A stretch of DNA of 45,261 nucleotides, taken from the NCBI RefSeq assembly GCF_003591005.1, contig NZ_QYYD01000033.1, positions 1 to 45,261 on the forward strand, read 5' to 3'. Positions 9,324 to 38,239 of this stretch are shown here, piece after piece. The position numbers and the translations under genes are program-made. The DNA is from Rhodopseudomonas palustris (GTDB taxonomy: Bacteria; Pseudomonadota; Alphaproteobacteria; Rhizobiales; Xanthobacteraceae). Numbering within the stretch: position 1 is the first letter of the stretch; each line of letters opens with the position of its first letter. The notes beneath the pieces are model-generated. The model saw only the letters and a program-made list of their open reading frames with translations. It was not told the origin of the DNA and did not search any database.

Positions 9324-12152
9324 CTACGCAAACCCGTGCTTCTTCTTGCTCTCCAGTTCCTGCGCCTTGAAGGCGTTAAAGCGCGGCAGGAACTTGTCCC
9401 AGTCGATGATGTGGGCGTCGATTTCCGGGCCGTCGATGCAGGCGTGCTTGCGGACCAATTTGCCGTCGATGGTGACCGGCACCATGCAGGCGCCGCACAT
9501 CCCTGTCGCATCCACCATGATCGAGTTGAGGCTCGCCACGGTCTTGACGCCGTAGGGCTTGGTGAGGTCGCTCACCGCCCGCATCATCAGCGGCGGGCCG
9601 ATCGCGATCACTTCGGCGATGGTGCGGCCGATGCCTTGCTGATTGGCCTTGATCATCTCTTCCAGCGGGCCGGTGACGAAGCCTTTGACGCCGTAGCTGC
9701 CGTCGTTCGTGGTGTAGATCAGCGACAGCTGGTCGCCGAACTCCTGCTTCAGCTTGCCGACGCGCTCGTCGTCGCCCGTCCAGAACAGGAACTCCTGGGC
9801 GCGGAAGCCGGCGATCAGCGTGACGTGATTGCCGAGCCGCAGGTGCTCGCGCATGATCGGATAGACCGGTGGCAGGCCGACGCCGCCGGCGCAGAACACC
9901 ACGGTCTGGTTGCCCTCGTAGCGATGTAGTTCGCTGGCGCGGCCGAGCGGGCCGGCGATGCCGGTGAAGGCGTCGCCGATCGCCATGCGGTTGATCTCGA
10001 GCGACGAGGTGCCCATGCCCTGCACGACGAGATCGATGGTGCCTTTCTCGGCGTCCCAATCGGCCAGCGTCAGCGGGATCAGTTCGCCCTTCTCCCACGG
10101 CAGCACGCGGACGAACTGTCCGGCCTGGGCCGAGCGCGCCACCATCGGCGCCCGCACGGTGAACTCGACGATGCCGCCGGCGAGCGGCACCTTGCCGACG
10201 ATGGTCTGCTCGATCTGGCCGAGCTCGGTGTACTTGGCGGCGCGCTCGACGCGGTCCTTGATCTGCGCCGCCGTGAACGGAATCTCGCCGACGATCTCGC
10301 GTGCCGCCGCCTGGCCGTCGCCGGCGGCGCGGATCGCGGTGGAGCCGCCGCGCGCGGCGTCGCCGCCGGTGTAGACATCCTTGATCGAGGTGCGCTGCGA
10401 GCCTTCCTCGACTTCGATGGTGCCCCATTTGTTGGTCTTCAGCCCCGGCTCGGCGTCCTTCATGATCGGGTTGGCGGTGTTGCCCAGCGCCATGATCACG
10501 AGATCGACCGGCACCCGCTCGATCTGCCCGGTCGGCTTCGGGCTGCGGCGGCCGGATTTGTCCGGTTCGCCGAGTTCGTTGACGTCCAAGAGGGCGTGGG
10601 TGACGAAGTGGGTGTGGTCGTCGCCGATGAATTCGCGCGGCGCGCGTAGCACGGCGAGAGCGATGCCTTCCTCCAGCGCGTGATGCAGCTCCTCGACGCG
10701 GGCCGGCATCTCGCTCTGGGTGCGGCGATACACGATGGTGACATTGCCGCCGAGCCGCTTGGCGGTGCGCGCCGCGTCCATCGCGGTGTTGCCGCCGCCG
10801 ATCACGAAGACGTTCTTGTCTTTGACTTCCGGCAGCGGCGTCTCGTAGCGATCATCAAGCCCGCGCATCAGATTGACGCGGGTCAGGAACTCGTTAGCCG
10901 ACATCACGCCGAGCAGATGCTCGCCGGGCACGTTCATGAACGTGGGAAGGCCGGCGCCGGTGCCGACAAAAATCTTCCAGAAGCCTTCGGCCTTGAGGTC
11001 TTCCAGCGTCGCGGTCTTGCCGACCACAAAGTTCTTCACGAACCGGCCGCCGAGCAGGATGATCTTTTCGACCACGTCGTCGATCAGCGTGTTGGGCAGG
11101 CGGAATTCCGGGATGCCGTAGCGCAGCACGCCGCCGAGGTCGTGAAACGCCTCGAAGATCGTGACCGGGAAGCCTTCGACCGCCAACAAGTAAGCATTGA
11201 TCAGACCCGACGGGCCGGAGCCGACGACCGCGATGGGCGGCTTCACCGCCGCCGCCCACGGCGAGATGCGGCCGGCGAAGCGCTCATTGGCGTTCGGATT
11301 GGTGAGCTTCTGATGCTCGGGCAAGTACCATTCGAGCTGGCCGATCTCGATCGGCCGCTTGGTGTGGGTGCAGACGCCCTGACACTGCAGTTCCTGCGGG
11401 CAGACGCGGCCGGTGACGTTCGGCAGCGGGTTGCAGCTCTCGATCAGCTCCAACGCTTCGCGATGCTTGCCGTTGCCCAATAGGTCCAGCATCTCGGGGA
11501 TGTGGATCTTCACCGGGCAGCCGCCTTTCGGTTCCTTCTTGCCCTGGATCAGCACGCCGAGTTCGCACGGCTTGTCGTCGCACTGCTTGTCGCGCATCAC
11601 CTCGAGCCAGACGAACAGCTCGCACTCGCGCAAGCTGTAGCCGATCGACTGGTACCCGAGGTAGCCCTGGTTGACGAGGTCGAAGTCGACCGCGCGCTGT
11701 TCCGCCGGGCGGATATAGGGCGGGATGAACGCTTCGCCCGGCCAGCCTTCCGACAGGTTCTCGAACATCGGGTAGCGACCGCGCAGGTGCACGTCGATCG
11801 CCTTGATGAACTTGCGCTTGAACTTCAGCGGCAGCGCCCAGATGAAGCGCTGCAGGATGATGCTCATATCATCGCCGCGGGCGAGCAGAGCCCACAGCGT
11901 GGTGGTGAAGGCTTCACCGAGCTCCGGCTGCTGGAATTCCCAGACGATGGCCTGGGTGCCGTCGGCGATGAACATGCTCCGCAGCGACGCCGGGTCGTTG
12001 ACCAGGCGCTTCTGCAGCAGCGCAAGCTGCTTCTGGAACACGCCGACCGCTTCGCTGGCCTGCAGTTCTTCCAGCTCGGTCTGCGAGCTTTCCAGCGCGC
12101 TGCGCGCCTGCTGATAGCGCAGCACGTCGTTGGACACGGAGATGCCGCTCAT
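9324..12152 (-). CDS. NfnAB/SudAB-type fused NAD(P)H:ferredoxin oxidoreductase
   Basis: This 942-residue flavo-iron-sulfur protein fuses two subunits normally separate. Residues 1 to about 195 are an extension I do not recognise. Residues 200-600 resemble GltD/NfnB: a cysteine-rich [4Fe-4S] region (GRVCPQELQCQGVC near 245), an FAD-binding VVGSGPSGLINAYLL near 309 and an NADPH-binding VIGGGNTAMDAART near 452. Residues about 640-925 resemble SudB/NfnA: a ferredoxin-reductase FAD/NAD module (GQFVRVLP, CAGGVGLPP) and a [2Fe-2S] motif MCGAC...HAC near 886-901. The likely role is electron exchange between ferredoxin and NAD(P)H. Its ATG overlaps the stop of the upstream PFOR gene by four bases (ATGA), so the two are translationally coupled. 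Bifurcation, as in NfnAB, is possible but unproven; a simple ferredoxin:NADP reductase is the alternative. Confidence 0.88.
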   Translation of the reverse strand: MSGISVSNDVLRYQQARSALESSQTELEELQASEAVGVFQKQLALLQKRLVNDPASLRSMFIADGTQAIVWEFQQPELGEAFTTTLWALLARGDDMSIILQRFIWALPLKFKRKFIKAIDVHLRGRYPMFENLSEGWPGEAFIPPYIRPAEQRAVDFDLVNQGYLGYQSIGYSLRECELFVWLEVMRDKQCDDKPCELGVLIQGKKEPKGGCPVKIHIPEMLDLLGNGKHREALELIESCNPLPNVTGRVCPQELQCQGVCTHTKRPIEIGQLEWYLPEHQKLTNPNANERFAGRISPWAAAVKPPIAVVGSGPSGLINAYLLAVEGFPVTIFEAFHDLGGVLRYGIPEFRLPNTLIDDVVEKIILLGGRFVKNFVVGKTATLEDLKAEGFWKIFVGTGAGLPTFMNVPGEHLLGVMSANEFLTRVNLMRGLDDRYETPLPEVKDKNVFVIGGGNTAMDAARTAKRLGGNVTIVYRRTQSEMPARVEELHHALEEGIALAVLRAPREFIGDDHTHFVTHALLDVNELGEPDKSGRRSPKPTGQIERVPVDLVIMALGNTANPIMKDAEPGLKTNKWGTIEVEEGSQRTSIKDVYTGGDAARGGSTAIRAAGDGQAAAREIVGEIPFTAAQIKDRVERAAKYTELGQIEQTIVGKVPLAGGIVEFTVRAPMVARSAQAGQFVRVLPWEKGELIPLTLADWDAEKGTIDLVVQGMGTSSLEINRMAIGDAFTGIAGPLGRASELHRYEGNQTVVFCAGGVGLPPVYPIMREHLRLGNHVTLIAGFRAQEFLFWTGDDERVGKLKQEFGDQLSLIYTTNDGSYGVKGFVTGPLEEMIKANQQGIGRTIAEVIAIGPPLMMRAVSDLTKPYGVKTVASLNSIMVDATGMCGACMVPVTIDGKLVRKHACIDGPEIDAHIIDWDKFLPRFNAFKAQELESKKKHGFA

Positions 12153-15100
12153 CGGATGATCTCCGCGTCGCAGTTCGCCGCCGCGCGGCTGAGCTTGGCC
12201 GACAGCTCCGGCGTCACCTTGAGCTTGCCGAACACGCCGGGAATAACGTGCGCGACGTCTTTCGAGGCGCCGCCGACCATGATCTTGGTGAGCTCGAACA
12301 CCTCAGGCACGTCCTGGTAGCAGCTCTTGCAGTTGGTGCATTTGTCCAGATCCGCATCGTCGATGTGGATCGGCTCGCCGCCGTTGCCGTTCGCCGCCTT
12401 GGCGCCGTTGTTCGGCGCTGCCGCCGCCGGAGCCGCCGCAAAGCCGTTCATCAGCGCACCGAAGCCGCCGGCCGCGGGCGCGTTGGACGAGGCCGCCAGC
12501 TCGCTCATGCCGCGCGCGATCTGATCGAGCGAGCTTTCGCGCGCCTTGACCTGCTCCTCGTACTGGTGCTGCAGCGCGCTGAGCTCCGCGCTATGCGCTT
12601 CGTCGAGCGCGCGAACGTCGAAACCGGCCAGCACCTGCAGGGTGCGCCAGTATTTGCGCCGCTCTTCCACCAGTGCCACGACGCTGTCGCCGACCGACAG
12701 CTTGACCAGCTTCTTGTCGCCGTCGGTGGTGGTGATGAACGGCGTCTTGCCGGCACGCGCAGCGGCGTCGAGCGCGACGTACTCGTCGATCGGCAGCGCG
12801 TCCGCGTCCTTCTTCAGCGGCTTGAACTGCTTGCGGAAGCGGACTTCGGTATAGGCGAAGTCAGCCGGCGTCAGCTTGGTCTTGAGCAACTGCGTCGCGC
12901 CGTTCTCGTCGATGTATTCGATCGACTTCGAGGCCCAATCCTGATCCGGCTCCGGGTTGCCGTCGAGCGAGAACGCGCGCTCGGTCTTGCCGACTTTGCG
13001 CGGGTCGTGGACGAACACCGGATTCATCCGGCTCTCGACTGCGAGGCGCGCCTGGCGGCTTGCCGCGGCGTCGCCGATGCCGTGCTCGGCCTGGCATGGC
13101 GTGTAGACGTCGAGTACCGCCGGCGACGAGCTGTGGTTGAGGAACTCCATCACGTTCTTCAGGAAGTGGCCCTGCAGCGCGGTCGCGGTCTGCACCACCA
13201 ACACGCTGGGATGGAACGAGGCGATCAGGCCGAGCTCCTTGCGGGATTCCTGCTTGCCGTGCTGGGCGACGCCGAACCGAGACAGGTCGGAATCCTGGCC
13301 GGTGAGGCTGGCGGTCGAAGTCTGGCCGCCTGTGTTGGAGTAGGCGCCGGTGTTCAGCACCACGACCTTGATCGGCGTCTTGGTGGCGAGCAGCCGCGAC
13401 AGCGCGCCGAAGCCGATGTCGTAGGTGGCGCCGTCGCCGCCCATGCTGAGCACGGTCGGCAGCATCGCCCGTTCTTCCGGCGTGAATTCGCTCCAGCCGA
13501 AATAGCGGAAGTAACCATCATGCTTGGCCGCATTATAAGCGTCGGCAAGCTCCAGCTTCGCCACGCGCAGCGCGCGGAAATCTTCCGTCGCCTTGGCGGT
13601 GAGGCCTTCGAAGATGCCCTTGGCCACCGCGGGCGTGTCCTGGAACAGGCTGTTCACCCACGGGTCGGTGTAGGGGTTGAACGGGAAGGTCGAGGCGTAC
13701 ACGCTCGAACAGCCGGTGGCGTTGGCGATCACCATGCCGGACGGGCCGTTGCCGGTCGGGCCGCTCTCGTAATTGTAGAGCCGCTTCTCCAGCGTCTTCA
13801 GCGCCGCGTCGATCCGCGCGACGCGGGCGGTGTCGGCGGCGACCTCGGCGCGCTTGGCACTGAGCTGATCGATCAGGCTTTCCAGTTCGCGGGTATGGTC
13901 CTTGCGGCGCTTGTCGTGGATCGCGTGGTTGGTCGAAGTGACGAGGCGGATCGCGGTGACTTCGCCACAGCCGCGGCAGGCGCCGTGGCCGCCGGTGGTG
14001 GCGTAGTAATTGGCGCGATCGAGCATCAGGCGCTTGGTCTCACCCTCGGGCTTCGTCGCGCTTTCGGTGAAGCGCGCCGGGGTGTTCGGCGTGCGGCTGA
14101 GAAATTCGAACCGGGCCTGAAGTTGCTCCAGCATCGGCTCGTCCTGCTCGCGATCGACCAGCGCGCCGGGGCCGCAGACGTCGATACATTCGAGACAGCC
14201 CGAACACTTCCACGGATCGACGCTGACTGAGTAGAGGCCGCCGGTGCCTGGCTGACTCTTTTCCATCGCGTCGAAGAACGGCCGGGTGCGAGCCACCGGA
14301 TACACGGACAACACCGCCGACAGCTTACCGAGGTTGCGGTTCAGCGTGGCGTTGTCGAGTTGCAGCGACTCCGCCGCTTGCGCCACGATGTCGGCGAATG
14401 GCTTGTCGTCCTTAGCCGAACGATACACATCGCGGATCGCTTCGGTCAGCGCCGGCACCTTGTCACGCAACGCATCCTGCTGAGCCGGCGCGATGTCCAG
14501 CTGCTTGATCGCGGTCAGCAGCAATTCGTGGATGTCGTGCACCGCGTTCGGGATCGCGGCGTCAGGACAAACCAGCGCGCATTCCATGCAGCCGGTGCAG
14601 AGATCAGCCTTGAACTCCGGCACGTTGCGGCGGAACAGGCCCTTGTCCTTGGCGGCCGCGGAGCCGGCGGGCATGAACATGCCAATGCCCGGCAGCACCG
14701 GCGCATCCGCAATGGTGCCGTCGCGGAACGGGCCGGCCAGCACGTCGTCGTAGTACTCCGGATCGAGGAAGCCCGACGCCTGCGCCGGCGCCGCGGCGCG
14801 GCACATCGAGGCGGAGATCGAGGCATCGCGCCTCGCCCTCGGGGCCGCCTTGATGGCGTCCTCGCTGAATTCCGGCGCGTCGACATCGACCTTGTGGGTG
14901 GCCTCCAGACCCTCGCGGATCACCGCCATGTTGCCTTCGACGATGTCGCCGCCCTTGGCGCCGAACTTCTTACCGATCTGCTGGCGGATCTTGTTGAGCA
15001 TCGCCTCCTGCGAGGCGTCCGCCACCACGCGATCGACGTTGCCGCACACCGCGCCGATGAAGGCGATGCCCATCATGCGGGTCTCGAGTTCGGCGGTCGG

Positions 15101-17137
15101 CGCGTGGCGCTTGGCCACCGCGAAGGCGTCGATGACGTAGAACTTGATGGCCTTGTCGCGGATGGTCTGGCGCGCCTTGGCGGGCAGATCACGCCACACT
15201 TCGAGCGCCGTGAGGTTGGTCTGCAGGATGAAAGTGCCGCCGGCGACCAGGCCGCGCAGCGGATTGGTGTGGACGAACACCTTGTGGTCGGGCGAGATCA
15301 CGATCTCGACGTCTTCCAGCTCGGCGTTGGTGATCTTCACCGGCTCCGGCGACAGCGTGATGTAGTAGTTGGTCGGCGCGCCGCTCTTCTCCGAGCCATA
15401 TTTCGGCGCCGACTTCGAATGCATGTCGAGCGCGCCGGCCAGGATGTCGGTCAGCAACTTGCCCGACGCGATGGTGCCGTAGCCGCCGATCGAGTGGAAG
15501 CGGATGCGGAACGCGGACGGCGGCAGCAGGTTCGGGTTCGGCCCCGTTTCCAGCGCCATGTATTGCGTTTCGGGATACGCCGCCTTCAGCCGGTTCTGGA
15601 GCGCCTCCATGCGCGGCGACGCGTTCTCGGTGAAGAACCTGGTGCCGAGATACACGAACGGCGCAGAGTCGGTCTTCTCCATATTGGCGTAGCAGGCGAT
15701 CAGGTCGCGCGGCTGCAGGTCGTGGCCGCCGAGGCCGAAGATCGCGGTGGTGATCTTCGGCAGCTTGGCCAGCGCCGGAATGCCGGCGTGACGCACGCCG
15801 GCATCGCCGTTCTCGCGCGCCTTGCACAGCGCCTGGGTGACCAGCTGGGTCAGCGCAGTGACGTCCGAGCGCTCCAGCACGGTGACGGCGGTCTTGCCGG
15901 CCAGCGCCGCGACCAGTTCGGCCTCGGGGAAGGGCTGCAGCATCTTGATCGACACCACGCCGACCTTCTTGCCCTGCGAGCGCAGATAAGCCGCGACCGC
16001 CTCGGCGTCATCGGTGACCGAGCCGAGCCCGACCACGACGTGCTCGGCATCGTCGCACATAAAAGTCATCACCGGCTTGTACTCACGCCCGGTCAGCGCC
16101 GCGTACTCCGCCATCGCTTCGGTGACGAAGCGCGGCACCGCATTGACGAAGTGAGTGCGGTGATCGACTGCGCCGGCCTGGAAGTCCGGCTGGTTCTGCA
16201 CGCCGCCGGTGAGGCCCGGATTGTCGATATCGACCAGCGCCGGCACCAGCTGCCGTGTGCCTTTCTCCGGTGCGTTGATCCACTGCCGCTTCCACGGCCC
16301 GCGCAGTTCTTCCGGCGCGTAAGCCAGCGTCTCGGCGACGATGGCCCCGTCGTTGTCGGCCTCGATCGCGTCGGCGTTGTCGTCCAGAAACTTCTTCAGC
16401 GACGCGAGATCGGCCGCGACGAAATCAGTTTCGTGCCGCAGCAGATACTGCTTGAGCTGGAACACGCGGCCCTTGGCTCCGAACAGCATCTCCTGCGCCA
16501 CGGTCGGGCACTTGATGCGGCCGGCCGGATCGCCGAGAAATTCGCGCAGCAGTTCCGGCTCCGGCATCAGCGCTTCGCTGAGCATGTGCGAGGTCGCAAA
16601 GCCGTCCATCGCATTGGCGACCGGGATCAGCGAGGTGGCGGCGACCTTGTAGGAAATTGCCGCGAGATCGGCGGCTTCCTGCGGATTGGAGCCGAACAGA
16701 ATCGTGTAGCCGGACGACAGCAGCGCATAGACGTCGTCGTGGCCGGCCATCACGTTGAGCGAATGCTTCGACACGACGCGCGCGGCGACCTGCAGCACGA
16801 AGCCGCCGACCTTCTTGCCGACAGTGACGTAGTGCGACTCCAAGCCGTACAGAATGCCCTGGCTTGAGGAGGCGTTGGAGATGAACTTAGCCCCGGTCAG
16901 CGCGGCGCCGAGCGCGCCGGACTGCGCCGAGTGCTCGCCTTCCGGCTCGAAGAAGAACGGATGCTTGCCCCAGACGTTGCAGCCGCCGGAGGAGCGGAAC
17001 GCCTCATAGATCTCGGAGATCTCGGTCGAGGGCGTGATCGGATAGCCGATGACGCCGCCGCAGACATGCCCCATCACCTGCGCCACCGCGCCGTTGCCGT
17101 GGATCACTGACGGAATGCCGGGGTATTTTGCGTTCAT
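12149..17137 (-). CDS. nifJ: Giant pyruvate:ferredoxin (flavodoxin) oxidoreductase with C-terminal ferredoxin
   Basis: At 1662 residues this is some 450-500 longer than usual single-chain PFOR. Domain order is the standard one: alpha part (GVIGYPITPSTEISE near residue 30), gamma part (SIGGYGTIASGKLLTDIL near 560), a double [4Fe-4S] part (CTGCMECALVCP near 847, CSGCLECIDVCG near 983) and the thiamine-diphosphate part (GACRGCGEVTA near 1056, GGDGATYDIGFGAL near 1236). Extras are about 130 residues between the two cluster motifs, a charged coiled coil near 1080-1115, and a Pro/Ala/Gly linker leading to a C-terminal ferredoxin (CTNCKSC near 1602, last Cys in NCDAEII). It should interconvert pyruvate + CoA and acetyl-CoA + CO2 with ferredoxin. 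ATG 17137 fits the conserved N-terminus, although the frame is open to 17320. The nifJ name is by family only. Confidence 0.9.
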   Translation of the reverse strand: MNAKYPGIPSVIHGNGAVAQVMGHVCGGVIGYPITPSTEISEIYEAFRSSGGCNVWGKHPFFFEPEGEHSAQSGALGAALTGAKFISNASSSQGILYGLESHYVTVGKKVGGFVLQVAARVVSKHSLNVMAGHDDVYALLSSGYTILFGSNPQEAADLAAISYKVAATSLIPVANAMDGFATSHMLSEALMPEPELLREFLGDPAGRIKCPTVAQEMLFGAKGRVFQLKQYLLRHETDFVAADLASLKKFLDDNADAIEADNDGAIVAETLAYAPEELRGPWKRQWINAPEKGTRQLVPALVDIDNPGLTGGVQNQPDFQAGAVDHRTHFVNAVPRFVTEAMAEYAALTGREYKPVMTFMCDDAEHVVVGLGSVTDDAEAVAAYLRSQGKKVGVVSIKMLQPFPEAELVAALAGKTAVTVLERSDVTALTQLVTQALCKARENGDAGVRHAGIPALAKLPKITTAIFGLGGHDLQPRDLIACYANMEKTDSAPFVYLGTRFFTENASPRMEALQNRLKAAYPETQYMALETGPNPNLLPPSAFRIRFHSIGGYGTIASGKLLTDILAGALDMHSKSAPKYGSEKSGAPTNYYITLSPEPVKITNAELEDVEIVISPDHKVFVHTNPLRGLVAGGTFILQTNLTALEVWRDLPAKARQTIRDKAIKFYVIDAFAVAKRHAPTAELETRMMGIAFIGAVCGNVDRVVADASQEAMLNKIRQQIGKKFGAKGGDIVEGNMAVIREGLEATHKVDVDAPEFSEDAIKAAPRARRDASISASMCRAAAPAQASGFLDPEYYDDVLAGPFRDGTIADAPVLPGIGMFMPAGSAAAKDKGLFRRNVPEFKADLCTGCMECALVCPDAAIPNAVHDIHELLLTAIKQLDIAPAQQDALRDKVPALTEAIRDVYRSAKDDKPFADIVAQAAESLQLDNATLNRNLGKLSAVLSVYPVARTRPFFDAMEKSQPGTGGLYSVSVDPWKCSGCLECIDVCGPGALVDREQDEPMLEQLQARFEFLSRTPNTPARFTESATKPEGETKRLMLDRANYYATTGGHGACRGCGEVTAIRLVTSTNHAIHDKRRKDHTRELESLIDQLSAKRAEVAADTARVARIDAALKTLEKRLYNYESGPTGNGPSGMVIANATGCSSVYASTFPFNPYTDPWVNSLFQDTPAVAKGIFEGLTAKATEDFRALRVAKLELADAYNAAKHDGYFRYFGWSEFTPEERAMLPTVLSMGGDGATYDIGFGALSRLLATKTPIKVVVLNTGAYSNTGGQTSTASLTGQDSDLSRFGVAQHGKQESRKELGLIASFHPSVLVVQTATALQGHFLKNVMEFLNHSSSPAVLDVYTPCQAEHGIGDAAASRQARLAVESRMNPVFVHDPRKVGKTERAFSLDGNPEPDQDWASKSIEYIDENGATQLLKTKLTPADFAYTEVRFRKQFKPLKKDADALPIDEYVALDAAARAGKTPFITTTDGDKKLVKLSVGDSVVALVEERRKYWRTLQVLAGFDVRALDEAHSAELSALQHQYEEQVKARESSLDQIARGMSELAASSNAPAAGGFGALMNGFAAAPAAAAPNNGAKAANGNGGEPIHIDDADLDKCTNCKSCYQDVPEVFELTKIMVGGASKDVAHVIPGVFGKLKVTPELSAKLSRAAANCDAEIIR

Positions 17138-17338: not shown

Positions 17339-17352
17339 TTGACGCGCATCAA
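17339..17352. promoter_or_regulatory. FixK/FNR-type box upstream of the PFOR operon
   Basis: TTGACGCGCATCAA fits the FNR/FixK consensus TTGAY-N4-RTCAA at every constrained position on both strands. It is 202 bases upstream of the PFOR start and 214 bases upstream of the DUF2478 start, so it could serve either gene. It suggests induction under low oxygen. Confidence 0.7.
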
Positions 17353-17481
17353 AAGAAAAGGTTTTGCCGTCGTTTCTGAAATATAATTACAAGATCGGTT
17401 CTGCGACGCACCCGCAGGTCGAATGATGCCCGTCACCACTGCCCGTTGCAGCTAAAGGAGAAATTGCCGCGTCACCGCTCT

Positions 17482-17505
17482 CGTTATATACTTGTCTATA
17501 CGACG
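17482..17505. promoter_or_regulatory. Candidate Mo-box (ModE site) upstream of DUF2478 gene
   Basis: CGTTATATAC, four bases, then CTATACGACG form an imperfect palindrome (CGT-nn-TATA in each arm) like known ModE sites. The left nine bases, CGTTATATA, are identical to the left arm of the mop/modE site at 22908. It lies 60 bases upstream of the DUF2478 start. Confidence 0.55.
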
Positions 17506-17565
17506 TGTGCTGACGCTGTTGGCATCAGGATGCCCGGGAGCGCTCACGCGACCGGTGGAGGACCG

Positions 17566-18150
17566 ATGACCCTCGATTCCCATACTTTCGATTCGCAATG
17601 CGATCTGGCCGCGCTGGTCTATGAGCCGGGCGAAGATCCCGACGCGCTGCTGCAGGGGTTCGCGGACGACCTCAGCGCCAGCGGCGATCGTGTCGTTGGG
17701 CTGGTGCAGTTCGGCGATCGGCTGGCTGGCGCAACGAGGTCAGGGGCGACGCTGTTGCACAGCGGCGAGCGAGTGCCTCTGTACCAGAACCTTGGTGCAC
17801 ACGCCGCCGGATGCCGGCTCGATCCCGGCCAATTGCTCGCCGCCGGCGACCGCATCGGTTCGGCGATGGACGACGGCGCCGATCTCGTCATCATCAATCG
17901 CTTCGGTCAGCAGGAATGCGAAGGCCGCGGCCTGCTGCATCTGATCGTCCGCGCCATCAGTGCCGACATCCCGGTGGTGATCGCGGTGCCGGCCAAACGC
18001 TTCGACGCCTGGATCCGTTTCGCCGAGGGTATGAGTGTCCGGCTGCGCTGCGATCGCGGCGCGTTGGACGCGTGGTGGGCGAGTCTGTCCGCGCGCGGCC
18101 GGTCCAGTGCGGCGCGGCCGCATACGACGCTTTGCGAAGCGTTCAAGTAA
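17566..18150 (+). CDS. DUF2478 family protein (molybdenum-linked)
   Basis: This 194-residue protein belongs to DUF2478, a family with no established activity that often lies beside molybdate-transport genes. Visible family features are the N-terminal strand LAALVYEP, the core LVIINRFGQQECEGRGLL and the tail in which a W closes the domain (DAWWASL). No signal peptide is seen, so it should be cytoplasmic. ATG 17566 is chosen for the TGGAGGA ribosome site 3 bases upstream; an in-frame ATG at 17446 would place the candidate Mo-box inside the coding region. A paralogue is at 26796. It converges with the pentaheme cytochrome gene. A regulatory or molybdate-handling role is inference. Confidence 0.85.
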   Translation: MTLDSHTFDSQCDLAALVYEPGEDPDALLQGFADDLSASGDRVVGLVQFGDRLAGATRSGATLLHSGERVPLYQNLGAHAAGCRLDPGQLLAAGDRIGSAMDDGADLVIINRFGQQECEGRGLLHLIVRAISADIPVVIAVPAKRFDAWIRFAEGMSVRLRCDRGALDAWWASLSARGRSSAARPHTTLCEAFK

Positions 18151-18180: not shown

Positions 18181-19332
18181 TCAGCGGCTCGCCGGTGCAG
18201 CGTCGCGCGCGTGGTTCTGCAGATAGGCCTGCAGCAGCGCGACCTCCTCGCCGGTCAGCGCGGTGAAGCGCTTCATCGCGTTGACGTGGCCGATCCACTG
18301 ATTGGCGGTGGCCGTCGTCGGCTGCCGCAGCGCGTGACACATCGTGCAGTTATCATCGTTGATGCGGGCGCCGATCTGCCATAGCGGATCAAGCTCCGAC
18401 ACGAAGCCGCCGGCCGGCACCCACACGTGCAGTCGCATTCGGGTCCAGGCGAGATCCGTGTCGGGATCGGTGACGGTCTCCAGCGGCATCAGCTTCTCGA
18501 TCGCCGCGGCGTCGAGCGTTGCCACCAGTACCCGCTGCCCGACGCGCTGATACATCATCTCCGGCGAGCCCTCGCGCTGCCAGCCCTCGAGTTCCACGCC
18601 GAGCACATCGCCGTCGACGCTGCGCAAAGCAACTGCGGCGGCTGGCGCGATCTCGCCGGCGGCGTTGCTCTCATTAGGTGCCAGCCGGAACGGCGTGCGG
18701 GCGATGGCGTAGAGCGTCGCACCGGGGGTCGGCGCCAGCGTTTTCGCGGCCGCGGCGAGCTGCGCAAACGCAGCACGATGGCCTGCGGTGATATCGGGCA
18801 AGCGGTGGGCGACGCCCTTGTGGCAATCGATGCAGGTCTTGCCGGCCTTCATGGCGGCCGCCATCGCGCTCGCCGCCTTGGCGCTCTGCTTGTGAAAATC
18901 CATCGCGGCGAACGAATGACAGTTACGGCACTCGCGGCTGTCGTTCGCACGCATGCGGTCCCATTCATGACGGGCGAGTTCGTGGCGCTTGGCTTCGAAC
19001 TTCTCCGGTGTGTCGATGCTTCCCGCCATCCAATGCAACAGTTCCTTGCTGGCGGTCACCTTGCGGATCAGCATGTGTCCCCAGTCGCGCGGCACGTGAC
19101 AGTCAGAGCAGACCGCGCGTACGCCGCTGCGATTGCTGTAATGCGCCGACGTCTTGTACTCCTGATACACGTTGTCCCGCATCGCGTGACAGGAGGTGCA
19201 GAACGCCAGACTGTTGGTCGCCTCCATTGCGGTATTGAAGCCGCCCCACGCGATCGCGCCGCCGGCCGCGGCCAGCAGCAATACGAAGGCCAGCGGCCAG
19301 CGCCGGCCGAATCCGGTCATCGGAGCCGTCAT
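18181..19332 (-). CDS. Pentaheme NapC/NirT-type cytochrome c, TorC-like
   Basis: This 383-residue protein has one N-terminal membrane anchor (PLAFVLLLAAAGGAIAWGGF) and a periplasmic part with five CxxCH heme sites: CTSCH, CSDCH, CRNCH, CIDCH and, near the C-terminus, CTMCH. Four N-terminal hemes define the NapC/NirT quinol dehydrogenase family; the fifth heme and the length match the TorC subtype (about 390). It should take electrons from menaquinol or ubiquinol and pass them to a periplasmic reductase. No torA-like reductase gene is next to it. Instead it lies 87 bases downstream of a cytochrome c peroxidase gene on the same strand, suggesting a joint transcript. ATG 19332 is used; a second ATG four codons in is possible. 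Confidence 0.88.
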   Translation of the reverse strand: MTAPMTGFGRRWPLAFVLLLAAAGGAIAWGGFNTAMEATNSLAFCTSCHAMRDNVYQEYKTSAHYSNRSGVRAVCSDCHVPRDWGHMLIRKVTASKELLHWMAGSIDTPEKFEAKRHELARHEWDRMRANDSRECRNCHSFAAMDFHKQSAKAASAMAAAMKAGKTCIDCHKGVAHRLPDITAGHRAAFAQLAAAAKTLAPTPGATLYAIARTPFRLAPNESNAAGEIAPAAAVALRSVDGDVLGVELEGWQREGSPEMMYQRVGQRVLVATLDAAAIEKLMPLETVTDPDTDLAWTRMRLHVWVPAGGFVSELDPLWQIGARINDDNCTMCHALRQPTTATANQWIGHVNAMKRFTALTGEEVALLQAYLQNHARDAAPASR

Positions 19333-19419
19333 CGAACGATCGATCCGTGGGTGAGAAGAGGGGAGGAGCAGAGATCGCTGTCGATCTCCGCTCCTGAAGG
19401 TCGAGGCGCCGCGGCGGGA

Positions 19420-20418
19420 TTAGTCGAACGGCTTCGGCGGCGTGGTCTTGTCGGTCGAAGGCGGCAGGATCGGCAGTTTGAGATCGGGCTGATCGCCGGT
19501 CAGCGTCTTGAGGAAGGCGACGATCTTGGTGTTCTCCTCGGGCGTGAACGTCTTGCCGAGCTGAATCCGGCCCATCGTGTCGACCGCCTGCGACAGCGTC
19601 TGCGCCGCGCCGTCGTGGAAGTACGGATAGGTCAGTTCGACGTTGCGCAGCGTCGGCACCTTGAAGTTGAAGCGATCGGCTTCCTCCTTAGTGACGGCGT
19701 AGCGGCCTTCCGCCGGGTTGTCGGTCTTGTACGGCTCGACCACGCCCATCTTCTGGAAGGTGTTGCCGCCGACCGCGGAGCCGTTGTGACAGGCGGTGCA
19801 GCCGGAGTCCTTGAACAACTCGTAGCCGGCGAGTTCGGTCGGCGTCAGCGCTTTCTTGTCGCCCTTCAGCCATTTATCGAACCGTGAGTTCGGCGTGACC
19901 AGCGTCTCCTCGAACGCCGCGATGGCGCGCGTCACTTCGTCGATGTCGACCGTGCTGGTCTTGCCGAACACCGATTGGAATTCGCCGACGTAGCCCGGAA
20001 TCGATTTCAGCAAGTCGACCGCGAGCTCGTGCGTGAACGCCATCTCGCCGGGATTGGCGATCGGTCCGCCGGCCTGGTCCTTCAGCGTGAGCGCGCGGCC
20101 GTCCCAGAATTGCGCGACGTTGAGGCTGGCATTCAGCACGGTCGGCGCGTTGATCGGCCCCTTCTGCCAATTGTGCCCGATCGAGGTCCTGAGGTTGTCG
20201 GTGCCGCCCATCGACAGGTTGTGACACGAGTTGCAGGAGATAAAGCCCGACTTCGACAGCCGTGGATCGAAGAACAGCTTCTTGCCGAGTTCGACCAGCT
20301 TGGCGTCCTTCACCACGGCCGGCTTGATCGGCGAGATCGGCTCGTCGGCCGCGCGGGCGGGAAGCGACAACGACAGCGAGACGGCCGTCGCCAGCAGCAG
20401 CACATTCGCGTACTTCAT
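19420..20418 (-). CDS. ccp: Diheme cytochrome c peroxidase
   Basis: This 332-residue periplasmic protein reduces H2O2 to water with electrons from c-type cytochromes. It starts with a signal peptide (MKYANVLLLATAVSLSLSLPARA) and has the two heme motifs of the CcpA/MauG superfamily: CNSCH near residue 61 and CTACH near 205. The family segments GTDNLRTSIG, NAPTVLNA and FFHDG-like YPYFHDGAAQTL are present. Length fits bacterial peroxidases. A G-rich ribosome site precedes ATG 20418. The NapC/TorC-like gene follows on the same strand, and an FNR/FixK-type box lies about 105 bases upstream, fitting expression at low oxygen. MauG-like maturation activity is less likely given the length and neighbours. 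Confidence 0.93.
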   Translation of the reverse strand: MKYANVLLLATAVSLSLSLPARAADEPISPIKPAVVKDAKLVELGKKLFFDPRLSKSGFISCNSCHNLSMGGTDNLRTSIGHNWQKGPINAPTVLNASLNVAQFWDGRALTLKDQAGGPIANPGEMAFTHELAVDLLKSIPGYVGEFQSVFGKTSTVDIDEVTRAIAAFEETLVTPNSRFDKWLKGDKKALTPTELAGYELFKDSGCTACHNGSAVGGNTFQKMGVVEPYKTDNPAEGRYAVTKEEADRFNFKVPTLRNVELTYPYFHDGAAQTLSQAVDTMGRIQLGKTFTPEENTKIVAFLKTLTGDQPDLKLPILPPSTDKTTPPKPFD

Positions 20419-20518
20419 GATTCAACCCCCAGACTGATGAGCATCGAAGGGGGCCCAGGGCCGTTCCGCGACGATGCAGAAGCGGGATTAAAGTAGTTCT
20501 TATTCGCAATCGCCGACC

Positions 20519-20532
20519 TTGATCAGGCTCAA
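20519..20532 (-). promoter_or_regulatory. FNR/FixK-type box upstream of ccp
   Basis: On the minus strand this reads TTGAGCCTGATCAA: both TTGA and TCAA half-sites at correct spacing, with one off-consensus base at position 5. A class II promoter would start near 20484 and give a leader of about 66 bases to the ccp start. Confidence 0.55.
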
Positions 20533-20706
20533 ACCGGATGCCGCAACAGAGCGCTTCGAACTGGCGACAAGTCGTTGTCGTCGCTCGCAATCCCGGGACA
20601 CGCAAAGGGCCGGCGCGTGGTCTACGACGAAAGTCCGGGCGGCTTCGATGGCGAAGGAAAAGGCGACCCAGCGCGTGCAGCCCGGATCGCCTTGCGTATC
20701 GCGTTC

Positions 20707-21189
20707 TCAATCTTCCAACAGGCTGCGCAGCATCCAGGCTGTTTTCTCATGAACGTCGAGCCGCTGCGTCAGCAGGTCGGCGGTCGGCTGATCGTTAGCC
20801 GCATCGGTAAGGGGAAACAGCTCTCGCGCCGTCCGCGCGGTCGCTTCCTGCGCGGCTACCAGATGGCGCACCATGTCCATGGCTCTCGGAACGCCGGCGA
20901 CTTCTTCGATCGAGGCCAGCGAGACGAACTCCTTGTAGGTGCCGGGTGCCGGAAACCCGAGCGCGCGAATCCGCTCGGCAATCTGGTCCAACGCCGTCCA
21001 CTGCTCGGTGTATTGAGCCATGAACATCGCGTGCAGCGTGTTGAACATCGGGCCGGTGACGTTCCAATGGAAATTGTGCGTCATCAGGTACAGCGTGTAA
21101 GAATCAGCCAGCAGTCGCGATAGCCCTTCGGCAATTTTGGAGCGCTGTTCCTCTGGTATCCCAATGTTGATTTGCGGATGCTTCTTCAT
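20707..21189 (-). CDS. dps: Dps/ferritin-like DNA-protection protein
   Basis: This 160-residue protein belongs to the Dps family, which forms 12-subunit shells that oxidise and store iron using H2O2 and protect DNA. The ferroxidase signature is clear: THNFHWNVTGPMFNTLHAMF then YTEQWTALDQIAERIRALG. The C-terminal VHEKTAWMLRSLL is also typical. Length matches. AGGA lies 6 bases before ATG 21189. It is upstream of and co-directional with the cytochrome c peroxidase gene (289 bases apart), so the two may serve the same peroxide defence without being one transcript. Bacterioferritin is excluded by length and motif. Confidence 0.92.
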   Translation of the reverse strand: MKKHPQINIGIPEEQRSKIAEGLSRLLADSYTLYLMTHNFHWNVTGPMFNTLHAMFMAQYTEQWTALDQIAERIRALGFPAPGTYKEFVSLASIEEVAGVPRAMDMVRHLVAAQEATARTARELFPLTDAANDQPTADLLTQRLDVHEKTAWMLRSLLED

Positions 21190-34776: not shown

Positions 34777-35838
34777 ATGTCGGTGTTTGCTCGAACTGCC
34801 TGGTTGGCTCTTGCTGCGATGCTGCTGGCGCAGCCGGCCGCGGCCCAGACCAAGATCCGCTATCTGCTCACTTCGCCAAGTCCCGGCGTCGCCGAGGCGC
34901 CGCATTCCTCGGTGCCGGAGGCGCTGGGGTTCTGGAAGGACGCCGGGCTCGATGTGACGGTGACGCCGTTCAACGGCTCGACCGGCGCCACCCAGGTGGT
35001 GATCTCCGGCTCGGCCGAATTCACCATGGCAAGCCCGGAAGCGCTGCTGGTCGGGCGGCAAGGCGGCGCCGATATCAAGGCGGTCTACAATCACGCGCGC
35101 GAGGCGATCTACACCATCGCGGTGGTGAAGCAGAGCCCGGTACAGAACCTCGCCGATCTCAAGGGCAAGACCATCGGTGTCGTCAGCCTGTCGAGCGGCG
35201 CCACCGCGGTCGCCAAGGCGATGTTGCGCGGCATCGGCCTCGATCCCGAGAAGGACGTCAAATGGCTGCCGATCGGGCTTGGGCCACAATCCGCCGCGGC
35301 GCTGAAGGCCAATCAGGTCGACGCCATCGCGATGTGGGACTGGGCCTACGCCATCCTGGAAAACTCCGGCTTCCAGTTCCGCCATTTCGAGACCGAAGGC
35401 ACCTCGAAGCTGCTGAGTATCATGCTGATCGGCAACGGCGCGTTCATCAAGGACAAACCCGACGCCGTCGTCGGTTTCGCCGAAGGCATCGCCAAGAGCG
35501 TCGTATTCACGCTGGCCAATCCCGAAGCGGCGGTGCGGCTGCATTGGGCGCGCTATCCGGCCTCCAAGCCCGCCAACATCCCCGAAGACCAGGCCCTGCG
35601 CGAAGCGGTGCACGTGCTGGAATCGCGCATCGCCAAGTACAAGCTCGACGGCCGCGCCGATCCCCGGTTCGGCGCCTTCACGGCGGACGAATGGAAATCG
35701 ACGCAGGCATTCTTCTTCGATGTCGGCATGATCAACGCCAAACCCGACGTCAGCGAATACTACACCAACGCGTTCGTCGACCGCATCGATCACTTCGACA
35801 AGGCGGCGATCGCCCGCAAGGCCGAGGCCTATCGGTGA
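34777..35838 (+). CDS. ABC transporter substrate-binding protein (NitT/TauT/SsuA type)
   Basis: This 353-residue periplasmic protein has a signal peptide (TAWLALAAMLLAQPAAAQ). Its fold is of the SsuA/TauA/NMT1 class: IRYLLTSPSPGVAEAPHSS, ALGFWKDAGLDVTVTPFNG, LKGKTIGVVSLSSGAT and QSAAALKANQVDAIAMWDWAY in pieces. Members bind sulfonates, nitrate, thiamine precursors or aromatic and aliphatic acids. Here the neighbours (crotonase, acyl-CoA synthetase) favour an organic acid. AGGAG lies 8 bases before ATG 34777. The stop overlaps the ATPase gene start (GTGA). Confidence 0.9.
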   Translation: MSVFARTAWLALAAMLLAQPAAAQTKIRYLLTSPSPGVAEAPHSSVPEALGFWKDAGLDVTVTPFNGSTGATQVVISGSAEFTMASPEALLVGRQGGADIKAVYNHAREAIYTIAVVKQSPVQNLADLKGKTIGVVSLSSGATAVAKAMLRGIGLDPEKDVKWLPIGLGPQSAAALKANQVDAIAMWDWAYAILENSGFQFRHFETEGTSKLLSIMLIGNGAFIKDKPDAVVGFAEGIAKSVVFTLANPEAAVRLHWARYPASKPANIPEDQALREAVHVLESRIAKYKLDGRADPRFGAFTADEWKSTQAFFFDVGMINAKPDVSEYYTNAFVDRIDHFDKAAIARKAEAYR

Positions 35839-36636: not shown

Positions 36637-37428
36637 ATGAACCGCCGTTTGGCCGGCATCCTGGAACGTCAGGGCCTTCCGCTGCTGGCGGGAGCCATCA
36701 TCGTGCTGATCTGGGAGTACGTCCCGGCCGCGATGGGGGTGTCCAAGCTGCTGCTGCCGACACCCAGCGAGATTCTGCGCTCGCTGTGGATGCTGCAAAC
36801 CCGCGGCCTGCTGATCGAGAATTTCCTAATCACGCTGTTCGAAGCGCTCGGTGGCTTCGTGGTCGGCTCGATCAGCGCGATCTTCTTCGCCTTTCTGGTC
36901 ACCCGCTCGGTGATCATCGAGCGCGCGCTGATGCCGTATCTGGTCGGCCTGCAGGCGTTGCCGAAGGTCGCGGTGGCGCCGCTGATCGTGGTGTGGATCG
37001 GCATCGGCATCGAATCCAAGGTGCTGATCGCCGCGGTGATCTCGTTCTTCCCAGTGCTGATCAACGCCATCGTCGGCTTCTCGACGGTCGAAGCCGACAA
37101 GCTCGATCTGATGCGCTCGCTGGTGGCGTCGCGCTGGCAGCAGTTTCGCATGGTGGTATTTCCCAACTCACTGCCGTTCATCTTCGCCGGCCTCAATGTC
37201 GGCATCGTGCTCAGCATCACCGGCGCGCTGGTGGGCGAGTTCATCGGCGCCGATCGCGGCCTCGGCAATCTGCTGCTGCAGCTCAACTACAACATGGACA
37301 TCGCCGGGATGTTCGCGGTGCTGCTGATCCTCGCCTTCGTCGGCATCATTCTCTACGCGCTGATCCGCTATTTGCACCTGCGCCTGGTGTTCTGGGCCAA
37401 GCCCGACATCCGATCCGGCTCCAACTGA
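36637..37428 (+). CDS. ABC transporter permease (NitT/TauT type)
   Basis: This 263-residue membrane protein has about six hydrophobic segments, such as LPLLAGAIIVLIWEYVP, GGFVVGSISAIFFAFLV and MFAVLLILAFVGIILYALI. The coupling loop is recognisable near residues 155-180 (MRSLVASRWQQFRMVVFPNSLP). Residues GALVGEFIGADRGLGNLL are typical of the sulfonate/nitrate-type permeases. ATG 36637 follows a GAGGAG ribosome site. It completes the importer. Confidence 0.93.
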   Translation: MNRRLAGILERQGLPLLAGAIIVLIWEYVPAAMGVSKLLLPTPSEILRSLWMLQTRGLLIENFLITLFEALGGFVVGSISAIFFAFLVTRSVIIERALMPYLVGLQALPKVAVAPLIVVWIGIGIESKVLIAAVISFFPVLINAIVGFSTVEADKLDLMRSLVASRWQQFRMVVFPNSLPFIFAGLNVGIVLSITGALVGEFIGADRGLGNLLLQLNYNMDIAGMFAVLLILAFVGIILYALIRYLHLRLVFWAKPDIRSGSN

Positions 37429-37453: not shown

Positions 37454-38239
37454 GTGACAAACTCCCTCGTGCGACTCGACATGCAAGGTGCCGTCTCGAT
37501 CCTGACGCTCGACAATCCGCCGGTGAATGCGGCCTCGACCAAGCTGATGAACGCGCTGCACGCGCGGCTCGACGAGATCGAGCAGGACAAGGAAACCCGC
37601 TGTGTCATCCTCACCGGCGCCGGCAACCGGGCGTTCTGCGCTGGCGGTGATCTGCGCGAAGAGGCCGATTTCGGCACGCCGGAAGGCTCGCGAGCGTTTC
37701 AGGCACTCGGTCGCAAGACGCTCAATCGCCTCGAAAACTTCACGGTCCCGATCATCGCGGCGATCCACGGCTATTGTATCGGCGGCGGCACCGCGATCGG
37801 CTGGGCCTGCGATTTGCGAATTGCCGCCGACGACACCGTGTTCCGGGCTGCGGACGCGTATATCGGCATGGTGCCGAGTTGGGGCATGGGACTGACGCGG
37901 CTGCCGCGCTACGTCGGACGCAACCGCGCACTCGACATCCTGCTGCTCGGCTACGACTTCGACGCCAAGACCGCGTACGATTTCGGCCTGGTCACCAAGG
38001 TGGTGCCGCGCGCCGATCTGGAGAAGGAAGCGATGATCGCGGCGCAGCGCGTCGCCACCGCGTCGCCGTTCGCGATCCGCGCCACGCGCGAGGCGATCGC
38101 CTTCAATTCCCGCGAAAGCTGGAGCGACATGGTCGATTTCGAAGTCGAGATCTGCGACCGGGTGTTCGCACATCCGGACGCGCATGAGGGGCCGAAAGCC
38201 TTCGTCGAAAAGCGGAAGCCGAACTTCGGAGCGCGCTGA
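37454..38239 (+). CDS. Crotonase-fold enoyl-CoA hydratase/isomerase family protein
   Basis: This 261-residue protein has the crotonase fold. The oxyanion-hole regions NRAFCAGGDLRE (near residue 57) and HGYCIGGGTAIGWACDLRIA (near 104) are intact, so it should bind an acyl-CoA. The two glutamates of classical hydratases (E144 and E164 of the rat enzyme) align with A (GGG-T-A) and D (AADAY), so plain hydration is doubtful; isomerase, lyase or hydrolase chemistry is possible. Start GTG 37454 has AAGGA 7 bases upstream. The stop and the next start overlap (TGATG). It is in the same operon as the importer and the acyl-CoA synthetase. Confidence 0.88.
   Translation: MTNSLVRLDMQGAVSILTLDNPPVNAASTKLMNALHARLDEIEQDKETRCVILTGAGNRAFCAGGDLREEADFGTPEGSRAFQALGRKTLNRLENFTVPIIAAIHGYCIGGGTAIGWACDLRIAADDTVFRAADAYIGMVPSWGMGLTRLPRYVGRNRALDILLLGYDFDAKTAYDFGLVTKVVPRADLEKEAMIAAQRVATASPFAIRATREAIAFNSRESWSDMVDFEVEICDRVFAHPDAHEGPKAFVEKRKPNFGAR

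Follow-up and report, generated by a model that had tools for sequence, protein, structure and literature searches.

A giant pyruvate:ferredoxin oxidoreductase with a predicted tethered ferredoxin, paired with a fused Nfn-type oxidoreductase in Rhodopseudomonas palustris and other bacteria

Background

Pyruvate:ferredoxin oxidoreductases (PFORs) of the NifJ type, with solved structures from Moorella (6cin) and Desulfovibrio africanus (1b0p/7plm), and NfnAB (5jca, 4ylf), an electron-bifurcating NADH-dependent ferredoxin:NADP+ oxidoreductase, are the closest described systems to a pair of adjoining genes in Rhodopseudomonas palustris. We have analysed these genes within a 45,261-base stretch of contig NZ_QYYD01000033.1 (G+C content 0.66, in a genome of 5.62 Mb), the whole of which we call the window. 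One of them encodes a giant PFOR with three additions that are absent from the NifJ-type enzymes, namely an insert between two [4Fe-4S] motifs, a helical hairpin within the thiamine domain and, at the C-terminus, a tail composed of a helix, a linker and a ferredoxin domain. The other encodes a protein (hereafter fused Nfn) that joins an NfnB-like and an NfnA-like part. Here we present evidence that the two genes occur as a fixed pair, and argue that the tethered ferredoxin may hand over electrons directly from one enzyme to the other.

Direct coupling of pyruvate to a nicotinamide nucleotide is known from eukaryotes: the pyruvate:NADP+ oxidoreductase (PNO) of Euglena and Cryptosporidium is a single-chain PFOR that ends in a flavin P450-reductase-like module. 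PNO passes electrons from pyruvate to NADP without free ferredoxin, as is proposed here for the window pair, but in the window pair a ferredoxin forms the tether, and an Nfn protein encoded by its own gene takes the place of the fused reductase; the window PFOR is itself ruled out as a PNO, as Pfam shows no flavodoxin or P450-reductase domain in it. Another relevant system, the Rnf complex (a ferredoxin:NAD+ oxidoreductase), turns out to be the partner operon not of the window PFOR but of its sister clade. RnfB bears a flexibly tethered ferredoxin-like domain (PMC12174285), and the passages of that review used here make no mention of a PFOR in rnf operons.

Fused Nfn proteins were surveyed by Liang et al. 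(2019, PMC6405883), in whose scheme, as far as the passages used here describe it, the window protein corresponds to Pattern C (equivalent to NF009415/PRK12779), characterized by about 200 extra residues and a C-terminal A part, and distributed among Actinobacteria and Proteobacteria; fused homologues are described there as uncharacterized. The legend to Figure 2 of that paper lists PFOR among the nfn neighbours in some microbe; neither a giant PFOR as obligate partner nor a ferredoxin on a tether is mentioned in the same passages. Open-licence papers, searched by keyword, yielded no account of the pair with the giant PFOR or of PFOR genes in rnf operons. What appears to be new, as far as we have seen, is the obligate pairing, the tethered ferredoxin common to two clades with different partners, and an Asp residue in the distal cluster motif of the fused Nfn.

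Results and discussion

The two genes form a pair in distantly related bacteria

Both open reading frames (ORFs) of the pair were confirmed on the minus strand, with the PFOR gene upstream of the fused Nfn gene, so that the preliminary description of a 1662-residue PFOR and a 942-residue NfnB/NfnA-like fusion overlapping by four bases holds for ORFs and domains alike (Table 1). The genes next to the pair are polA and a DUF2478 gene, and the genome contains no second match to the window PFOR at E<=0.001.

The two genes were found in the same genomes in each of three samples. Among 398 evenly drawn Pseudomonadota (thresholds of E<=1e-150 for the PFOR and E<=1e-250 for the fused Nfn) the PFOR was present in 9 genomes and the fused Nfn in the same 9; among 101 relatives the fused Nfn scored above the cut-off in 21, and a PFOR of the window's type (clade A, see below) was present in the same 21, a 22nd PFOR match (G074) belonging to the distant clade B; and in 149 genomes from the order of the actinobacterium Actinotalea lenta both genes occurred in the same 14. 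Together, the samples comprise 43 distinct genomes with both genes and none with one alone at the thresholds used, including carriers known beforehand (G492 and G494 in the Actinotalea-order sample, G000 in the other two). According to the coordinates, the genes are adjacent in 9/9 carriers from the Pseudomonadota and in 13 of the 14 from the Actinotalea order, the remaining pair being split between contigs.

A survey of organism-named loci, restricted to the best 80 of 309 relatives, gave the same picture, with carriers including Rhodopseudomonas, Propionivibrio, Accumulibacter, Rhodoplanes and Actinotalea. The PFOR match ends just before the fused Nfn in 77 loci, and in all 77 it covers the last cysteine of the ferredoxin domain, reaching at least residue 1657. 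The three exceptions (L082, L083 and L093) are all from Thiosymbion, where a PFOR 65-66% identical to that of the window lies elsewhere in the genome. Of the 67 loci in which each gene is covered by one uninterrupted match, a set that excludes truncated or frame-broken copies (e.g. L046, L071 and L094), 55 would allow a 4-base overlap. No other neighbouring gene is common to more than 12 of 81 loci, hence the unit consists of two genes. The co-occurrence of both genes and the retention of the extensions, which the preliminary description had proposed as a check on its two-protein module, are thus borne out, and these data support the view that the giant PFOR and the fused Nfn form a fixed pair.

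Anatomy of the giant PFOR

In a single chain the PFOR combines the Pfam domains POR_N, PFOR_II, POR, Fer4-type, TPP_enzyme_C and a C-terminal Fer4_15 (residues 1596-1662). With all core domains and the GDG motif retained, it belongs to the 2-oxoacid:acceptor oxidoreductase superfamily; its score against the pyruvate:ferredoxin oxidoreductase equivalog TIGR02176 (402 bits) lies under the cut-off of 911, so we place it in the superfamily only. Conservation, here and below, refers to an alignment of 68 sequences. The 12 core Fe-S cysteines are invariant in 68/68 and, by analogy with the D. africanus enzyme, presumably hold three [4Fe-4S] clusters. With pyruvate as the putative substrate of the giant PFOR, T35 and R120 align with the Thr and Arg that have a role in pyruvate binding in the solved PFORs.

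The three additions were measured on one alignment that included four split two-subunit PFORs and three ordinary NifJ proteins. The [4Fe-4S] motifs are 120 residues apart in the window PFOR versus 69 in the split PFORs and 43-45 in NifJ, so that the enlarged gap noticed earlier is real, if somewhat shorter than the 130 residues first estimated. The gap between cysteines in the thiamine domain amounts to 85 residues versus 28 and 24, respectively, and the tail from residue 1512 onwards to 151 residues versus 6-15 and 0-17. An AlphaFold2 model of residues 830-1662 exhibits a hairpin of two helices (1058-1098 and 1103-1124) in the thiamine domain, a long helix (1506-1551), a linker with a predicted local distance difference test score (pLDDT) below 50, and a folded ferredoxin domain (1589-1662), in agreement with the coiled coil and the ferredoxin on a flexible linker proposed from the sequence at the outset. 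Solved PFOR chains align up to residue 676-678 of the model, i.e. residue 1505-1507 of the protein, and no further.

The fused Nfn and its distal cluster

Pfam assigns Fer4_20, Pyr_redox_2 and DHODB_Fe-S_bind to the fused Nfn, and its NfnB-like and NfnA-like parts match the NfnAB structure with 344 bits (5jca_L) and 235 bits (5jca_S), respectively. Both NfnB and NfnA domains are present, with flavin and nucleotide sites; unlike NfnAB, however, the protein is a single chain in which the B part precedes the A part, and it has an N-terminal extension of about 190 residues, an Asp residue at position 188 and a 12-residue insertion. Neither Pfam nor a sequence search of the PDB gave a hit to the N-terminus, which had been called unrecognized; nevertheless, the whole protein, N-terminus included, matches NF009415/PRK12779 with 1992 bits (cut-off 1519), residues 5-942 aligning with 7-944 of 944. 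The fused Nfn is therefore unnamed in function rather than unrecognized.

The distal motif reads R-C-x2-C-x4-C-x3-C in all six ordinary NfnB-type comparators, which belong to the same bacterial order. The fused Nfn has D188 in 68/68 sequences where all six comparators have Cys, and carries its 12-residue insertion after C196 and before C212. As the all-cysteine distal motif of a classical bifurcating NfnAB is thus absent, the protein has been filed with the Pattern C fused Nfn enzymes. The ligand positions of the second cluster (C212, C251, C257 and E274), like D881, C886, C889 and C905 on the NfnA side, are conserved in 68/68. In solved Nfn structures the distal cluster is the one that meets ferredoxin, so that the change to D188, a possible cluster ligand, is located where the tethered ferredoxin would dock.

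Table 1. Features of the PFOR and fused Nfn genes and their upstream region in the window
Feature	Coordinates	Strand	Evidence
Giant PFOR (clade A), 1662 residues from ATG	12149..17137	-	ORF, Pfam
[4Fe-4S] motif 1 of PFOR (C847-C857)	14567..14599	-	4 Cys kept in 68/68
Helical insert between the two [4Fe-4S] motifs (~866-950)	14288..14542	-	Lengths; model with four helices, pLDDT of block 85-94
[4Fe-4S] motif 2 of PFOR (C978-C988)	14174..14206	-	4 Cys kept in 68/68
Predicted helical hairpin ("coiled coil") in thiamine domain (1058-1124)	13766..13966	-	Lengths, model
Predicted 46-residue helix exiting the PFOR core (1506-1551)	12485..12622	-	AlphaFold2 model
Predicted disordered linker (1552-1588)	12374..12484	-	pLDDT <50; lowest conservation in PFOR, 0.49
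Tethered one-cluster ferredoxin domain (1589-1662; Cys 1600, 1603, 1606, 1656)	12152..12373	-	Fer4_15; 4 Cys in 68/68
ATGA stop/start overlap of the PFOR and fused Nfn genes	12149..12152	-
Fused Nfn (NfnB-like, then NfnA-like), 942 residues, NF009415/PRK12779	9324..12152	-	ORF, Pfam, curated model
Helical N-terminal domain of fused Nfn (1-190)	11583..12152	-	Predicted model; none in Pfam
Distal-cluster motif R-D188-K-Q-C191-x4-C196, Asp where comparators have Cys	11565..11594	-	Alignment
NfnB/GltD-like part (~209-625)	10278..11528	-	Pfam, curated model, PDB matches
NfnA/SudB-like part (~649-942; D881, C886, C889, C905)	9327..10208	-	Pfam, curated model, PDB matches
Palindrome TTGATGCGCGTCAA, presumably of FNR/FixK type, upstream of PFOR gene and shared with divergent gene	17339..17352	-

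A sister clade with the same tether resides in rnf operons

Clade B comprises PFORs about 40% identical to those of clade A and endowed with all three additions, the ferredoxin tail being present in all 19 proteins aligned. Its member in G074 (1651 residues, 36-41% identical, again with all three additions) is encoded between rnfB and rnfC, with rnfD and rnfG next in order. In another order a clade B PFOR was detected in 13 of 250 genomes and, within the 1.5-kb flanks examined, its gene stands between those for RnfB and RnfC in 13/13; together with G074 and L051, this makes 15 of 15 loci from Pseudomonadota in which the gene lies between rnfB and rnfC. The fused Nfn was not found in any of the three clade B genomes searched as a whole (G074, and G366 and G459 from the set of 13). 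A further search matched 39 genomes, among which neighbourhoods were examined for two full-length and four partial proteins. In Gemmatirosa (Gemmatimonadota) and in Persicobacter (Bacteroidota) the clade B PFOR gene is borne on plasmids, beside rnfC, rnfD and rnfG, and is preceded by rnfB in the former; in the latter RnfB is represented only by a partial match downstream, where the stretch ends.

With most of the added regions removed, a tree of 45 sequences unites clades A and B in one group (support 1.0) apart from the split PFORs, with support of 0.954 for clade A, which includes the window PFOR, and 0.978 for clade B. The simplest reading is therefore that the tether originated a single time, prior to the divergence of the partners. 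The position of the window PFOR in the tree, along with polA and the DUF2478 gene as its neighbours, rules it out as an Rnf-linked protein of clade B.

The preliminary description had regarded extended PFORs that regularly lack the partner gene as evidence against the module. Such proteins literally exist in clade B, but they are found in rnf operons instead, and since rnf encodes another ferredoxin:NAD oxidoreductase, they widen the idea of electron handover rather than kill it.

Several further loci were noted in the course of these comparisons. The closest relatives devoid of the three additions are split two-subunit PFORs (about 680-713 plus 543-550 residues) of other Pseudomonadota (L192-L195). 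In a metagenome-assembled genome of Rhodocyclaceae (L051:1-13729) a clade A PFOR, fused Nfn, rnfB, a clade B PFOR and rnfC are encoded side by side. Thiosymbion G102 (L156:4270-8871) encodes a 1533-residue PFOR-like protein, 28% identical to that of the window, with RnfB upstream and RnfC downstream; it contains the insert and the hairpin and is devoid of the ferredoxin tail, the GDG motif and the thiamine-domain cysteines. It is likely an inactive PFOR kept beside Rnf, and similar matches were observed in two further Thiosymbion genomes.

An untethered paralogue

In addition to the usual pair (L155), genome G024 encodes a second clade A PFOR (L154) of 1551 residues, which is 66% identical to the window PFOR over residues 1-1549 and ends before the linker. 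No match to the fused Nfn, RnfB or RnfC was found on its 11-kb contig; 48 bases after the PFOR stop there is a separate 64-residue ORF with Fer4 and Fer4_7 domains (L154:4964-5158, minus strand). This single case suggests that loss of the tether was accompanied by a separate ferredoxin beside the PFOR. With clade A found with Nfn, clade B with Rnf and the untethered copy with neither nearby, the tether tracks a fixed ferredoxin:NAD(P) partner.

Proposed electron transfer and its alternatives

Gene pairing, domain anatomy, conserved cysteines and the sister PFOR with the same tether in rnf operons lead us to consider it reasonably probable that the window pair is a two-protein pyruvate:NAD(P) oxidoreductase with direct handover through the tethered ferredoxin. 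The PFOR core would exchange electrons with pyruvate, CoA and CO2 via thiamine and three [4Fe-4S] clusters, and the one-cluster ferredoxin, on its helix and disordered linker of about 37 residues, would shuttle between this core and the fused Nfn, meeting the latter at its distal cluster; electrons could then pass on to the second [4Fe-4S] cluster, the flavins and NAD(P)H, perhaps in a bifurcating reaction. We infer from these comparisons that electrons are physically handed over, as well as their path through the cofactors and their direction. As to direction, we favour pyruvate synthesis during anaerobic growth on acetate in purple bacteria and the reverse reaction in fermenting members. A review states, in the passage concerned, that acetate can be converted to pyruvate by a PFOR-type reaction; the PFOR meant there may be that of the window.

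Several observations weigh against this proposal or reduce its force. The unlinked genes of Thiosymbion indicate that the operon is not essential. Eight of the 9 positives in the sample of 398 come from one genus, and 16 of the 21 among the relatives from the window's own genus, so independent events must be fewer than the counts. The correlation between PFOR and Nfn distances (r 0.94, reached by 0/2000 permutations) is confounded by shared descent. Conservation is lower in the ferredoxin domain (0.73) than in the PFOR core (0.81-0.85), and the poor conservation of the linker, though expected of a tether, is no proof of one. Finally, the untethered paralogue provides just one natural comparison.

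The two proteins might alternatively be separate, co-expressed enzymes linked by soluble ferredoxin, with the ferredoxin domain put to another use, for example protecting the core against oxygen or keeping subunits together. Ordinary PFOR and Nfn use free ferredoxin, the Thiosymbion genes stand apart, and the untethered G024 copy is adjoined by a separate ferredoxin ORF. We nevertheless consider this rather unlikely, given that the tail is kept in every PFOR beside Nfn and its four cluster cysteines in every aligned sequence despite a drifting linker, that all aligned clade B proteins also possess it, and that a ferredoxin:NAD(P) oxidoreductase is the endpoint in both clades. It is a good deal harder to dismiss the possibility, to which we still give less than even credence, that the tethered ferredoxin does feed the fused Nfn, but that the latter is a plain, non-bifurcating ferredoxin:NADP+ reductase, which would make the pair a counterpart of eukaryotic PNO. 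The invariant Asp in place of a distal Cys and the 12-residue insertion point to an electron entry unlike that of ordinary Nfn; on the other hand, the fused Nfn retains the invariant second-cluster and NfnA-side positions and both nucleotide domains, which a simple reductase would not need. That the tail supplies some other acceptor, for instance nitrogenase or a pool of soluble ferredoxin, with Nfn only recharging or draining that pool, seems to us quite improbable. Many clade A hosts are purple or denitrifying bacteria, judging by record titles, and PFORs can serve nitrogen fixation in other bacteria; however, no third gene accompanies the pair consistently, and the actinobacterial carriers and the aerobes of clade B would hardly share one acceptor.

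Returning to direct handover, it may be generalized: tethered-ferredoxin giant PFORs could constitute a family that plugs into a ferredoxin:NAD(P) oxidoreductase without releasing ferredoxin, clade A acting on the fused Nfn and clade B on Rnf. We put this broader proposal forward tentatively, at slightly less than even odds.

Upstream palindrome and other genes in the window

The palindrome of presumed FNR/FixK type upstream of the PFOR gene is present in 18 of 20 full-length relatives outside the named survey and in 19 of 65 named loci; overall it occurs in 37 of 108 loci (duplicates included) versus 0.56 expected from shuffles. It fits expression at low oxygen, and is absent from most loci outside Rhodopseudomonas. 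The DUF2478 gene (17446-18150, plus strand), divergent from the PFOR gene, shares the region of this box. Beyond it, a NapC/NirT cytochrome c, a MauG/CCP-type dihaem protein and a ferritin-like protein are encoded in a row (18181-21189, minus strand), and a second TTGA-N6-TCAA match (20519-20532) lies within this stretch. Further on, a 711-residue protein with CoA-binding, Succ_CoA_lig and ATP-grasp domains (38239-40374, plus strand), is presumably an acyl-CoA synthetase of the ADP-forming type. Its gene follows those of an NMT1-type binding protein (34777-35838) and of a permease (36637-37428), and a GntR/FCD regulator is encoded next. Elsewhere, on a plasmid of Phenylobacterium zucineum (L245), an ordinary nifJ lies between genes of an NAD(P)-binding protein and a dihydroorotate-dehydrogenase-like protein, perhaps another pairing of PFOR with NAD(P).

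Conclusions

Among the bacteria that carry the pair, Rhodopseudomonas, Propionivibrio, Accumulibacter, Rhodoplanes and Actinotalea are of importance for photosynthetic growth on acetate, for phosphorus removal from wastewater and for fermentation. With the pairing described here, the uncharacterized fused Nfn enzymes gain a specific partner and a putative substrate. If the proposed handover is true, it would represent a second route, besides the eukaryotic PNO fusion, of joining pyruvate directly to NAD(P)H, and clade A would provide either a transhydrogenase coupled to pyruvate or a pyruvate synthase that runs on NADPH. The Rnf sister would tie pyruvate chemistry directly to an ion pump, as a pyruvate-driven pump or as a pyruvate synthase driven by the ion gradient. 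Such enzymes would allow facultative and aerobic bacteria to carry out low-potential pyruvate chemistry without an exposed pool of ferredoxin.

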